In this document: piece after piece, positions 2,585 through 6,826 of the stretch
Numbering within the stretch: position 1 is the stretch's first letter
How the letters are laid out: the number at the start of each line of letters is the position of its first letter
Origin: an uncultured Subdoligranulum sp.
GTDB taxonomy: Bacteria > Bacillota_A > Clostridia > Oscillospirales > Ruminococcaceae
Length of the DNA: 6,826 bases
Reading direction: 5' to 3'
Assembly: GCF_937890665.1 (NCBI RefSeq)
Contig: NZ_CALADU010000128.1
Span: 1-6,826, forward strand
The notes under the pieces: generated by a model
Database searches by the model: none
The model's input: only the letters and a program-made list of their open reading frames with translations
What the model was told of the DNA's origin: nothing
Program-made: the position numbers and the translations under genes

Positions 2585-2602
2585 TTCTATTGAATATGTT
2601 TT
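2585..2602 (+). promoter_or_regulatory. Predicted Cascade/CreR target site with TTC PAM in the cas5 promoter
   Basis: The plus strand reads TTC (2585-2587) and then TATTGAATATGTTTT (2588-2602). The spacer-like part of the adjacent RNA begins TATTGTATATGGTTT (2815-2829). Thirteen of 15 positions are identical; the mismatches are at positions 6 and 12 only. After position 15 the two sequences are unrelated. TTC is the well-known PAM of type I-C, here on the correct side and directly abutting. Type I Cascades flip out every sixth base of the guide-target helix and tolerate mismatch there. A full-length footprint (about 2588-2624) would cover the predicted cas5 transcription start (about 2614) and touch its -10. 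The match is observed; binding and repression are inferred. Confidence 0.75.
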
Positions 2603-2628
2603 AAATATTCCTGTGAGATGATTATACT
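2600..2628 (+). promoter_or_regulatory. Possible weak plus-strand promoter overlapping the cas5 promoter
   Basis: TTTAAA (2600-2605) and TATACT (2623-2628) are separated by 17 bases on the plus strand. This would drive transcription towards the 24-codon ORF at 2707. The region is AT-rich, so this may be chance. Its -35 lies inside the predicted Cascade target. Confidence 0.25.
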
Positions 2629-2650
2629 GCTGCAAAGAGGGAAAAGTCAA
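2621..2650 (-). promoter_or_regulatory. Promoter of the cas5-cas8c-cas7 operon
   Basis: On the minus strand TTGACT (2650-2645) is followed after 18 bases by a perfect TATAAT (2626-2621). This is a strong sigma-A type promoter. Initiation is expected near A2614, giving a leader of about 58 bases before the cas5 ATG. It gives the Cascade genes an expression unit independent of cas3, and the predicted CreR target lies immediately downstream of the -10. Confidence 0.85.
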
Positions 2651-2782: not shown

Positions 2783-2789
2783 AAAAGCG

Positions 2790-2814
2790 GTCAGCGAAAG
2801 CTGTGGGTAGAAAA
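2790..2814 (+). repeat. Degenerate type I-C CRISPR-repeat-like element (pseudo-repeat of creR)
   Basis: The element reads GT, then CAGC-GAAA-GCTG (2792-2803), a perfect 4-bp stem closed by a GNRA tetraloop, then TGGGTAGAAAA (2804-2814). Known I-C repeats have GT, a 5-bp GC-rich stem with a longer loop, and an 11-nt 3' handle of the type TGGATTGAAAT, released when Cas5c cuts at the stem base. The handle here agrees at 8 of 11 positions. The stem has its own sequence and the element is about 7 nt shorter than a normal 32-nt repeat. Confidence 0.75.
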
Positions 2815-2851
2815 TATTGTATATGGTTTTCGGTTTTAGAATTGTGGCGGC
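2815..2851 (+). other. Spacer-like segment of creR
   Basis: These 37 bases lie between the repeat-like element and the terminator stem. The first 15 are the seed-proximal match to 2588-2602; the rest shows no relation to the target (4 of the next 22 positions agree). No other TTC-flanked match to the seed was noticed by eye in the window. Type I-C spacers are typically in the mid-30s of bases. Confidence 0.7.
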
Positions 2852-2880
2852 AAGGGTGCATCTTGTCGCCCTTTTCTTTT
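2852..2880 (+). terminator. Rho-independent terminator of creR
   Basis: AAGGGTG (2852-2858) pairs with CGCCCTT (2867-2873), including one T-G wobble, around an 8-base loop, followed by TTCTTTT (2874-2880). The U-tract is on the plus strand only, so this ends rightward transcription and not cas3 mRNA. The tail overlaps the cas3 stop codon (2879-2881). Confidence 0.75.
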
Positions 2881-5041
2881 ACTGAAAGATCCCTTTCCCG
2901 GTCTCTACGTTCAGGGACAGGCCGGTCTGGCGGTCATACAGCGAAAGATCGGTCAAAATGTAGCTGTCTGTATCGGCGGGTTCCGCGGCGCCGGCTGCCA
3001 GAAGTTTTTTCAGGTGTTCCGGGTAGATGTTGACGGCATACTGCCCCAGCTGGCGGTATAAGCTGCGGCTGACGTCCCCGGCGCGAAGGCGCTCCACCAA
3101 GGCCGCCCCCTCATCTACGGGCAAGTATACGGTGACCGTGGCAGTGTCGATCAGATGGAACATTTCCGCCACGGTAGCAAAGGGAAACATGCGCCCTTCA
3201 AAACCAGTACGGAAAGCGTCCAGAATTTGGTGCTGGTCCAGCGAAGCGTCTCCCTTTACGGCACGGTAAAAGGAAAAATAGCTTTCAATGGCTTCGGGCT
3301 GCGCGGGATCGGGGAAGGTATCCAGAACATGGCGGGCGGAATCCACATTGGGGCGGATCATGGCGGGCGTGCGCTGCCCCTCCAGACGGAAGATGGTAAC
3401 AATACTTTCAGCGACCGGGCGTTTTCCCTCCCGGTTGCAGCGCCCGCCTGTTTGCAGGATGGAATCCAACCCGGCTTCCTCCCGCCAGGCGGAGGGGAAG
3501 TCCACGTCGACGCCCGCTTCGATCAGGGAGGTGGAGACTACACGGCAGGGCAGACCTTGCAGCAGGCGGGAGCGGATCTCTTTCAAGAGCCGTTTGCGGT
3601 CAGCGGGGCAAAGCAGCGTGGTCAGGCAGTAACGGCCTTCCGGTTCCAGCATGGCATACAGCCGTTGGGCGGTGGCACGGCGGTTCACAACGCAGAGGGT
3701 CTGCGGCAGGCCGTTCAGGCGGGCGGCAAGCTCTGCTTCGGTCAATTCCCCGGCATTGCGCAGGGTGGTGCGGCGGAAAAAATCGTACAAGGCTTGGGTG
3801 CCCGGGCAGATCTCCTGCATGGTAAGGGCAGGCGCTAATTCGGCAAAGAGCGGTTGCAGCGCAGGTTGGGTGGCCGTACACAGGACCGCAGTGACGCCAT
3901 AATACTGCACCAACTGCCCAATAGCCGCCACGCAGGGGCGCAGATAACTGACAGGGAGCGTCTGTGCTTCGTCAAAAATAACGACACTGTCCGCGATGTT
4001 ATGCAATTTGCGGCAGCGGGAAGAACGATTGCCGTACAGAGATTCAAAAAACTGTACAGCAGTGGTGACGATGACAGGGGCGTCCCAGTTTTCGGTGGCC
4101 AGTGCTTTACGGTACAGCGCCGGGTCTACATCGCCTTCCGGGACAGAGTAATCGACACCGGCGTGATGTTCGATCACGTTTTCGTCTCCCAGAATTTTGC
4201 GGAACACATCGGCGGTCTGGTCAATGATGGATGTGTAGGGAATGACATAGATGATCCGCTTTTTCCCGCGTGCCGCCGCGTGTGCCAGCGCGAAAGCCAG
4301 GGAGGAAACCGTCTTGCCGCCGCCGGTAGGAACGGTCAGCGTATACAGGCCGGCGCGGCAGGAACCGCCGGTTTGCAGGCAGGTGCGCAAAATATCGCAG
4401 CGTTTGCGGTTCAGTTCGGTTTTGGCATCCCACCAGGGGGCAATGTACTGCTGCAACTTTTCTAATAGAAGGGCTGGGGGCTCGTAATTGCCGCGGGGTG
4501 CGGCGCTGCCTGCCATAAAGGTTTCGGTATCCAGATAGTCCGCGTCCACGAGACAGGAATACAGCATCCGAATATAAAAGGATTCGGACAAATTATCGAT
4601 GGGAATTTGCCGGGGATGAACGGCGGCAGGGATCTGGACTTCTTTGCGCCAGGCGGCTGCGTCTGGCAGATCCGTTTTCTTTAGCCGTCCAAACAATGTC
4701 CCTGCACCGGCGGCGTCAGTCTGTGCGCCCCCATCGGGCAGACCTCCGTGGTGACCAGCTATAACGAAGGCGGTCTCAAATTGCCGTAGATGAAAAAAGG
4801 CTTCCACCGCGCCAGCGGTGGCGTGATCGACTTTGGGGCCGCCGTGTAGCCGCTTTTGAAATTCGTGGCTGAATTTACCTATGTCATGCAGCATGCCGGA
4901 CTGGCGGCCCTGTTCGCGGCCGCCGAAAGGCGCTGCAAATTCTGCCGCTAAATCGGCGGTACCCTGTAGATGTTCCTTCACGCTTTGTGCGCGCAGGCCA
5001 TCTTCTGAAATGTGAGCGAGGAAAACATCGGGGTGTTCCAT
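2879..5041 (-). CDS. cas3: Cas3 nuclease-helicase, type I-C
   Basis: Cas3 is recruited to Cascade-bound targets, nicks the displaced strand and degrades DNA while translocating. With the ATG at 5041 the protein is 720 aa, normal for I-C. The N-terminal HD nuclease shows LHDIGKFSHEFQKR (His52-Asp53), DHATAGA (73-79), GHHGG (96-100) and LVDADYLDTE (about 164-173). The SF2 helicase shows Walker A TVPTGGGKT (236-244), the DEAQ box (357-360), a CTATQPAL motif III (388-395), SLIEAGVDVDFP and QTGGRCNREGKR (530-541) as motif VI. All key motifs are intact, so it looks active. A TTG two codons upstream is possible, but the GGAGG (5055-5051) is nine bases from the ATG and only three from the TTG, favouring the ATG. 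It has its own promoter and is separated from cas5 by 322 bp. Confidence 0.97.
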   Translation of the reverse strand: MEHPDVFLAHISEDGLRAQSVKEHLQGTADLAAEFAAPFGGREQGRQSGMLHDIGKFSHEFQKRLHGGPKVDHATAGAVEAFFHLRQFETAFVIAGHHGGLPDGGAQTDAAGAGTLFGRLKKTDLPDAAAWRKEVQIPAAVHPRQIPIDNLSESFYIRMLYSCLVDADYLDTETFMAGSAAPRGNYEPPALLLEKLQQYIAPWWDAKTELNRKRCDILRTCLQTGGSCRAGLYTLTVPTGGGKTVSSLAFALAHAAARGKKRIIYVIPYTSIIDQTADVFRKILGDENVIEHHAGVDYSVPEGDVDPALYRKALATENWDAPVIVTTAVQFFESLYGNRSSRCRKLHNIADSVVIFDEAQTLPVSYLRPCVAAIGQLVQYYGVTAVLCTATQPALQPLFAELAPALTMQEICPGTQALYDFFRRTTLRNAGELTEAELAARLNGLPQTLCVVNRRATAQRLYAMLEPEGRYCLTTLLCPADRKRLLKEIRSRLLQGLPCRVVSTSLIEAGVDVDFPSAWREEAGLDSILQTGGRCNREGKRPVAESIVTIFRLEGQRTPAMIRPNVDSARHVLDTFPDPAQPEAIESYFSFYRAVKGDASLDQHQILDAFRTGFEGRMFPFATVAEMFHLIDTATVTVYLPVDEGAALVERLRAGDVSRSLYRQLGQYAVNIYPEHLKKLLAAGAAEPADTDSYILTDLSLYDRQTGLSLNVETGKGIFQ

Positions 5042-5085
5042 GCTCAAAAACCTCCTTCACAGAGAACTGGTTTTCTTTTAGACCC

Positions 5086-5307: not shown

Positions 5308-5430
5308 ATGGATGCACCGACGGTCACGATTCGATTTGCAGAAGAAAAGGATGCCCCGACACTGGAAGCGTGCCTGGAACGGCTGGTCGCCAATCTGAGC
5401 GGGAATACGCCGGAGGACCCTGCCTTATGA
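5308..5430 (+). CDS. 40-aa hypothetical protein coupled to the recombinase (TnpW-like?)
   Basis: The product begins MDAPTVTIRFAEEKDAPTLE and ends NTPEDPAL. Its stop overlaps the recombinase ATG as ATGA (5427-5430), so translation is likely coupled. The pattern of a V-x-I-R-F strand, an acidic turn, then a helix with T-L-x-x-x-L-x-x-L loosely resembles the small TnpW-type proteins that lie just before large serine recombinases in Firmicute mobile elements; this comparison is from memory and weak. Its own ribosome binding site is poor: an AGAGGA at 5284-5289 is far from this ATG. The frame stays open leftwards without a better start, so the true start is uncertain. A remnant of an acetyltransferase N-terminus is another possibility. 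Confidence 0.45.
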   Translation: MDAPTVTIRFAEEKDAPTLEACLERLVANLSGNTPEDPAL

Positions 5431-6826
5431 AGCGCCCCGGCGGGCAGACAGCACAGGGAATGGCGGCGGCCATCTATCTGCGTCTGTCATCGGCGGACGG
5501 CCCGGCGGCGGAATCGGATTCTATCCAGAACCAGCGCGCCTTCCTGTGGGAGTGGGCGGGGCAGCACGGTTTTTCGATCCAACGGGAATTTGTGGACGAT
5601 GGCCATACAGGTACAGATTTTGAGCGTCCGGGGTTCCAGGCGTTGGAACACTGTCTGCTTGACGGCAGCGTCCGGTGTGTGATCGTCAAGGACCTTTCCC
5701 GTCTGGGGCGCAACTATGCCGAAACCGGGCGGTATCTGGAACAGATTTTTCCACGGCTGGGCGTCCGCTTTATCGCGGTCAACGATCAGTACGACTCGTC
5801 CGGGAATACCGACAGCGTGCAACAGATGGCGGTGTTCAAGAATGTATTCAGCGATCTTTACGCCGCTGATGCCAGCGCCAAGGTGCGGACTTCGCTGGGC
5901 ATCCTCAAACGGCAGGGAAAATTCCTGGGGCGGCAGGCTCCCTATGGGTACCGCATTGACCCGGCGGACAGATATCATCTGTTGCCGGATGAGGAAACAG
6001 CACCCACGGTACAGCGCATCTTTTCGCTGTTTCTGGGTGGGAATAGCCGTACCCGGATCGCCCATATGCTCAACAGCGAACAGATCCCGTCCCCGGCGGC
6101 CAGCAAGCAGATGAGGGACAGCAGCCGCCGCTTCACCGGCCTTTGGAATGCCGAGAGCATCCGGCGCATCCTGTCCCACCCGGTCTATCAGGGAGATATG
6201 GCCCAGCAGTTTACCCGGACCGTGAATTACAAGGTCCATCTGCGCCGCCGTGTCCGGCCCGAAGACTGGATCGTGGTACAGGGGACTCATGAACCGCTGG
6301 TGAGCCGCGAAGATTTTGCGCAGGCGCAGGCAATGTTGCAGGTGCGTACATACGCAGCCCACGGCCAGCCGCACCTGTTGACCGGCGTTGCCCGCTGCGC
6401 CGACTGCGGCAGTCCGCTGTACGCCAAAAAGCGGGGCGGCTACTGGTATCTGAACTGTTACGGTTACTATCGTGATCCTGCGGCCCGGCGGTGTACGTCC
6501 CACAGTATTCGGGAGGACGCGGTATTGCAGGCGGTGCAGGACAGCCTGCGCACGCTGGCACAGGGGCGGGTGGACCCGGCTGCAATGGCACGCCGATGTG
6601 CGGCCAGCCGGGGGAAAAGGCGGGACCTCGAAAACCTGCGCCGCAAACTGGAATGCAGGCAGGAAAACGCCCGCCGCACGCGCCTGTGCGCTTATAAAGA
6701 CAAGGCGGAGGGACGGCTCACGGCAGAGGAATTTGACTACATCACGCAGGAACTTCGGCGGGAGGAAACACGGAGCCAAAAGGAACTGGACCGCCTTTGC
6801 CGGGAAGCGGACCCGGTGGAACAGGA
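5427..6826 (+). CDS. Large serine recombinase (TnpX-like), C-terminus beyond window
   Basis: This is a site-specific recombinase of the large serine family, which integrates or excises mobile DNA by a serine-linked double-strand cut. It is open to the window's right edge (466 codons seen). The resolvase domain spans about residues 13-155, with AAIYLRLSS carrying the likely nucleophile Ser21, VDDGHTGTDFERPGF (56-70) and VKDLSRLGRNY (87-97). The recombinase domain follows: GRQAPYGYRID (168-178) through HEPLVSREDF (288-297). A zinc ribbon has Cys324, Cys327, Cys344 and Cys356, ending in CTSHSI. A charged helical, coiled-coil-like segment runs from about 395 to 460. GGAGGA (5412-5417) nine bases before the ATG and the ATGA overlap fix the start. 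It probably belongs to a mobile element; its partner ends are not visible. Confidence 0.95.
   Translation, partial: MKRPGGQTAQGMAAAIYLRLSSADGPAAESDSIQNQRAFLWEWAGQHGFSIQREFVDDGHTGTDFERPGFQALEHCLLDGSVRCVIVKDLSRLGRNYAETGRYLEQIFPRLGVRFIAVNDQYDSSGNTDSVQQMAVFKNVFSDLYAADASAKVRTSLGILKRQGKFLGRQAPYGYRIDPADRYHLLPDEETAPTVQRIFSLFLGGNSRTRIAHMLNSEQIPSPAASKQMRDSSRRFTGLWNAESIRRILSHPVYQGDMAQQFTRTVNYKVHLRRRVRPEDWIVVQGTHEPLVSREDFAQAQAMLQVRTYAAHGQPHLLTGVARCADCGSPLYAKKRGGYWYLNCYGYYRDPAARRCTSHSIREDAVLQAVQDSLRTLAQGRVDPAAMARRCAASRGKRRDLENLRRKLECRQENARRTRLCAYKDKAEGRLTAEEFDYITQELRREETRSQKELDRLCREADPVEQ

Follow-up and report, generated by a model that had tools for sequence, protein, structure and literature searches.

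CreR RNAs are crRNA-like products of cas loci with partial complementarity to a cas promoter, through which the Cas effector is expected to repress its own genes, and their usual form is a two-repeat mini-CRISPR. Shmakov and colleagues reportedly described, in 2023, conserved standalone repeats whose spacer is partially complementary to promoters of cas or cargo genes and which often form two-repeat mini-arrays. The natural single guide of Cas9, tracr-L, also steers an effector to its own promoter. In the available portions of the CreR literature, autorepression is named in types I-B, I-E and V-A (PMC13131331) and in type I and V-A broadly (PMC12737573), and a further source states no subtype (PMC12948488). 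Excerpts from reviews describe CreTA and CrePA, in which Cascade and a crRNA-like RNA repress a nearby toxin promoter by partial complementarity, and the accessible part of PMC10651486 describes Racrs as virus- or plasmid-borne repeat mimics built of a single repeat unit.

The window (the whole 6,826-nt stretch of DNA analysed here) carries a type I-C operon on its minus strand, and the 322-nt gap between cas3 and cas5c houses a solitary, plus-strand CRISPR-repeat-like element. Like CreR, this element has a guide that is partly complementary to a cas promoter region behind a PAM, and guide and target have stayed matched through evolution. Its presence, together with a terminator, the PAM and register of the match, and guide-target co-variation over related loci, makes it very probable that a CreR-like, cas-regulating RNA directs Cascade to autorepress cas5c-cas8c-cas7, as predicted here. 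The locus differs from the CreR cases named above in belonging to type I-C, in having one repeat and in replacing the second with a terminator hairpin, which in many relatives also shortens the guide. The two-repeat mini-CRISPR form, which we take as not defining, was not found in the window. The standalone repeats of Shmakov and colleagues share the lone repeat and promoter-matching spacer, but reportedly often have two repeats where the window has one. Tracr-L shares only the guidance of an effector to its own promoter, since it is an unrelated RNA serving the class 2 effector Cas9. Set beside CreTA and CrePA, the predicted promoter targeted in the window leads to cas5c; in the related loci L022, L030 and L041, a candidate defence pair lies between target and cas5c. 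Among the titles and abstract openings listed in our literature search, no paper on a type I-C case was seen. The single-repeat I-C form may thus be new relative to the subtypes named; an earlier listing of I-C in Liu 2023 or Shmakov 2023 is possible, and the latter may list such elements.

The cas genes of the window were identified with NCBIfam models. On the minus strand, cas3 (2879-5047) scored above the cut-off of the cas3 HD model and slightly below that of the helicase core, cas5c (1912-2556) matched TIGR01876 (E 3.2e-47), cas8c (167-1915) matched TIGR01863 (E 1.1e-136), and the start of cas7 (3-164), which continues beyond the window, matched TIGR02589 with E 7.1e-26 on 54 residues, below the full-length cut-off. 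A strong predicted promoter, TTGACT-18-TATAAT (2621-2650, minus strand; -10 at 2621-2626), has 11 of 12 consensus bases and leads directly to cas5c, the first gene of the predicted regulated operon, through a leader of about 57 nt. The repeat-like element lies between cas3 and cas5c, and cas3 is not under this promoter; the best reading of this arrangement is that autorepression would affect cas5c-cas8c-cas7 but not cas3. A large serine recombinase (5427-6824, plus strand), with Resolvase, Recombinase and zinc ribbon domains, is divergent from cas3, making a mobile element next to the operon possible.

The element itself, GTCAGCGAAAGCTGTGGGTAGAAAA (2790-2814, plus strand), was read directly from the sequence and compared with the array repeats of relatives. 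Its layout is that of an I-C repeat, with GTC first, then a stem in which CAGC (2792-2795) pairs with GCTG (2800-2803) around a GAAA loop, and last the 3' handle GTGGGTAGAAAA (2803-2814). Array repeats of relatives (for example GTCGCCCTCCGCACGGAGGGCGTGGATAGAAAT in the related locus L008) end mostly GTGGATAGAAAT/C or GTGGATTGAAAT/C, which supports the placement of the boundary between repeat and guide in the window. The handle of cognate repeats is thus present in the element, as judged by the repeats of relatives, the window's own array lying outside the window. Across the elements, 14 of 20 unique stems anchored on GT were fully paired (4/4). The mean was 3.3 of 4 pairs, against 2.19 when stem halves were re-paired at random (maximum 2.85 in 2000), a modest test in which the best GT position was taken per sequence, favouring pairing; a GT anchor was missing from 3 of 32 elements. 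For most single sequences an unanchored best-stem search told little, since shuffles often did equally well. Stem pairing that is kept while the letters change supports a function as RNA.

This RNA probably starts from its own promoter, for which we read a perfect -10 (TATAAT, 2777-2782) and a weak -35 (TTGTAT, 2754-2759, matching at 3 of 6 positions) on the plus strand, a pair that the promoter scan did not list. The predicted start at about 2789-2790 coincides with the first base of the repeat, and a TATAAT at similar spacing is visible in L001, L002 (the cultured relative Agathobaculum desmolans), L007, L014 and L015. The likely end is an intrinsic terminator (2846-2880, plus strand) with a 10-pair stem at 2846-2870 followed by a T-rich tail. 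It occupies the place of the second repeat, of which no instance follows the window guide (best second handle 6 of 9); across 24 elements, the search by handle reached at best 7 of 9 (L032 and L038). In L068, inspection by eye shows a second repeat-like stretch from 7141, after a spacer of about 21 nt, and mini-array and single-repeat forms both seem to occur in I-C. Computed hairpins begin 13-29 nt into the guide in 22 of 31 elements and at 0-11 or 42-44 nt in the other nine, RNAfold hairpin starts being erratic for some loci. In the window the hairpin lies about 30 nt into the guide, so that here the guide is nearly of spacer length and the match alone is short. The architecture is that of a single-repeat, terminator-capped guide. 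Folded alone, the window RNA (2789-2879, plus strand) forms no clean repeat hairpin: the repeat partly pairs with the guide (z -3.8 including the terminator), which may represent a competing fold able to tune loading. A search of 2500-2950 against Rfam gave nothing at the gathering score, and weak matches to L20_leader and Ocean-VII were taken as chance.

The guide, TATTGTATATGGTTT... (2815-2845, plus strand), matches the cas5c 5' leader through its first part (2815-2829). Its target site lies at 2588-2604 on the plus strand, of which TATTGAATATGTTTT (2588-2602) pairs with guide positions 1-15. Direct reading bore out the preliminary description in its account of this match: 13 of 15 positions are identical, the two mismatches fall at 6 and 12, TTC (2585-2587) immediately precedes the target, and similarity then falls off, with positions 16-20 all mismatched. 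TTC is the I-C PAM according to the sections seen of PMC8406640 and PMC10865793. Elsewhere in the window, no site behind TTC or TTT agrees at 9 or more of 13 core positions. Taken by itself, the window locus is suggestive only, as shuffled guides equal the observed TTC-anchored score at p ~0.002; it is the comparison across loci that makes the match secure.

That comparison drew on one genome per species with cas5c, in which at least 131 loci were confirmed; the best 80 were kept, giving 81 with the window. Elements upstream of cas5 were picked by the handle alone, within 600 nt upstream and read antisense to cas5, and L013 (a match inside cas3) and L028 (an array in the gap) were removed before counting. 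Such elements were present in 23 of the best 80 loci and in the window (24 in all), and 21 of these 24 have a TTC-flanked site in their own leader that agrees at 13-17 of 17 positions. The guides of L038 and L073 reach 12 of 17 and that of L036 10 of 17, below the 13-of-17 mark; these weak-target elements (at ~4508, ~3136 and ~9682, respectively, all upstream of cas5) were kept among the 24, and are either decayed or aimed outside the searched region. Swapping guides between loci of unlike guide gave agreement at 13 or more of 17 positions in 5 of 516 trials when TTC was required; dropping that requirement raised the count to 22 of 516.

A scan of both strands of the whole loci (1.12 Mb) added elements in L019, L022, L030, L041, L065, L068 and L078 and a second one in L049, for a total of 29 elements with a target in 28 of the 81 loci (best 80 plus window) and 27 unique guide-target pairs. 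For each of the 29 guides the matching site is flanked by TTC and stands upstream of a cas gene or an accessory gene. The guides fall into 15 sequence groups with a mean between-group identity of 5.9 of 17, and guide and target change together over all 15; independent divergence, which the preliminary description had named as speaking against its interpretation, was not seen in the 28 loci, and that interpretation is supported. In the window and its close relatives L001, L002, L005 and L007, for instance, the target tracks the guide through positions 7-11, where the guide reads ATATG, ATGTA or GTATA; position 6 is A in every target and T or G in the guide. The TTC, the register, the freedom of positions 6 and 12, and the end of similarity after about 17 nt all recur across related loci.

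Decoys further address the explanation that the element is a functionless array leftover, or a chance self-match in AT-rich DNA. Such an origin would accord with the p ~0.002 obtained from the single locus and with the divergence of the repeat-like part from array repeats, but decay would leave guide and target unmatched. At 12 of 13 core positions there were 27 or 28 distinct TTC matches (handle 9 or 8 of 9, respectively), and replacing TTC with seven other trinucleotides gave no match for six and one for ATC, an artefact from array sequence in L009; eight scrambled handles gave none in the whole-locus scan. With decoy PAMs and handles near zero, swapped guides rarely matching, co-variation in 15 guide groups and stem pairing kept, we rejected chance, and consider this explanation vanishingly improbable. 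By these criteria 53 of the 81 loci have no element, including the close relatives L004, L006 and L008-L012. They are mostly short-gapped, and L003, L045 and L066 have less than 170 nt upstream on the contig. L007, which does carry an element, ends at a contig edge after 22 nt of guide.

The distribution of mismatches bears on how the guide is used. The guide-target helix of type I complexes has each sixth base flipped out. Over 19 unique pairs, chosen by plain identity, no mismatch occurs at positions 1-5, 8-11, 13 or 15; mismatches number 10 at position 6, two at 7, 16 at 12 and one at 14, followed by four at 16, five at 17, 13 at 18 and 18 at 19. Clustered at 6, 12 and from 18 onward, these mismatches carry the signature of a type I effector. 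The wider scan disregarded positions 6 and 12 when finding its eight elements, and only the 19-pair profile is evidence that those positions are free. No mention of sixth-base flipping was found in the portion seen of an I-C structure paper (PMC7684278), and a term search of the I-C Cas3 structure paper PMC11417383 was likewise empty.

The position of the targets invites a different explanation, in which the element encodes an ordinary antisense small RNA that pairs with the cas5c mRNA leader and blocks translation or destabilizes the mRNA, Cascade playing no part. In the window, as in most loci, the guide runs antisense to the gene it precedes. The target, in the window and many relatives, is some 20-57 nt ahead of the ATG, either over the predicted start site or downstream of it. 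A consensus-only search listed promoter-like hexamer pairs in 23 of 24 cas5 leaders, all but that of L001. Relative to these, the targets in L047, L048, L063 and L064 border the predicted -35 on its upstream side and fall outside the expected transcript, and in L022, L030 and L032 the target has the other orientation and equals the sense of the mRNA. Target orientation and targets upstream of the promoter exclude simple antisense pairing as a general mechanism. Nor would RNA-RNA pairing be expected to favour a TTC beside the target or free positions at 6, 12 and 18, and the conserved repeat handle argues against a plain antisense RNA. On the strength of the PAM, the period-six mismatches, the target orientation and the untranscribed targets, we rejected an antisense RNA, which is very unlikely to account for these loci.

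Under Cascade-mediated autorepression, the location of the target also constrains where a block could occur. In the window it is some 28-48 nt upstream of the cas5 ATG, and the predicted start site precedes it by about 10-26 nt. A bound Cascade had been proposed to reach the -10 of the cas5c promoter; the match itself stays within the leader, and only a full protospacer of 34-35 nt would touch the edge of the -10, making a block after the start site as likely as promoter occlusion.

Across loci, the presence of an element follows the spacing of the genes. Where the cas3-cas5 gap is 215 nt or more, an element lies upstream of cas5 in 19 of 24 loci, against 1 of 52 with a shorter gap (76 measurable loci; the threshold was chosen after seeing the data and gaps were taken from mechanically called ORFs). 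The lone short-gap exception, L035, was mis-measured and really has a gap of about 276 nt; L025, L028, L036, L040 and L073 are long-gapped loci without a qualifying element. In the short-gap loci L065, L068 and L078 the element is instead upstream of cas3 (the cas3 start of L078 being inferred), with the targets of L065 and L068 about 355 and 510 nt before cas3 and only possibly near a promoter. Elements tend to be placed at a leading promoter of the effector genes. L049 carries two elements with different guides (7460/7541 and 9847/9976), one site upstream of cas3 and the other upstream of cas5.

Three loci contain a two-gene pair between cas3 and cas5c (L022, 8912-9987; L030, 1881-2994; L041, 4471-5562). 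The pair comprises a DUF3990 gene (PADLOC candidate PDC-M10A) and a partner that matches PDC-M10B in L022 and L041 and is similar in L030. In each, a repeat-like element and a TTC-flanked target lie upstream of the first gene of the pair, which suggests a Cascade-repressed candidate defence pair. L071 also has the pair, on a cut contig, and in L025 only the partner was matched.

The single repeat raises a further explanation, that the element acts as a Racr-like decoy: its lone-repeat RNA would occupy Cas5c or Cas7 and directly reduce Cascade activity, and the match to the promoter would be of secondary importance. Phage RNAs of this solitary-repeat type are inhibitors of CRISPR, among them one of type I-C (PMC10651486), and the element likewise has one repeat. 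It sits inside the cas operon, however, rather than being virus- or plasmid-encoded and separate from cas genes, and its guide is matched to a target. A decoy needs no guide, yet in 28 of the 81 loci the guide has stayed complementary to a site ahead of cas or accessory genes. Two exact patterns of the element had no match in viral contigs, where no cas5c was confirmed either; a plasmid search returned six records with 65.3-80.3% identity over 7-45% of the query, the annotated ones being cas5c. A decoy role therefore appears very improbable.

Returning to autorepression through a Cascade-bound guide, the proposed sequence of events would begin with transcription of the guide RNA from the plus-strand promoter and its loading into the system's own type I-C Cascade through Cas5c. 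This complex would bind the target in the cas5c leader as a short R-loop of about 15-17 bp and stop transcription shortly after the cas5c start site, and Cas3 would not be triggered because pairing stops at about 17 nt. By analogy with CreR, array crRNAs or anti-CRISPR proteins could draw Cascade off, relaxing the loop and increasing the supply of Cascade. According to PMC10865793, I-C Cascade represses even without Cas3, and with an engineered Neisseria lactamica I-C system in Escherichia coli an array lacking the second repeat was no less effective in repression than the complete one; its authors propose that capping might be important for Cas3 and not for stable binding. These observations on N. 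lactamica make a single-repeat guide plausible for I-C.

A broader reading, which we offer tentatively as possible rather than probable, is that in Clostridia and their relatives I-C systems employ a guide of a distinct kind, single-repeat and terminator-capped, that would span about three Cas7 steps (15-17 nt) and form a binding-only Cascade unable to license Cas3. It would be a portable module, placed before cas5, before cas3, before both (L049) or before a candidate defence pair (L022, L030 and L041), so that loss of Cascade, for example through an anti-CRISPR, would lead to more Cascade or to a backup defence.

The natural guide-target pairs amount to a map, made by selection, of the guide positions needed for binding without cutting. 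As drawn from the 19 pairs, positions 1-5, 8-11 and 13-15 are kept, apart from a single change at 14; positions 6 and 12 vary freely, and the match gives out near 17. For tools that repress genes, a single-repeat guide ended by a terminator is also a simple design. Among CRISPR subtypes, I-C is a common one; if autorepression of this kind is true, I-C systems set the level of their own effector with a guide RNA built into the locus, and could in this way respond to anti-CRISPRs.
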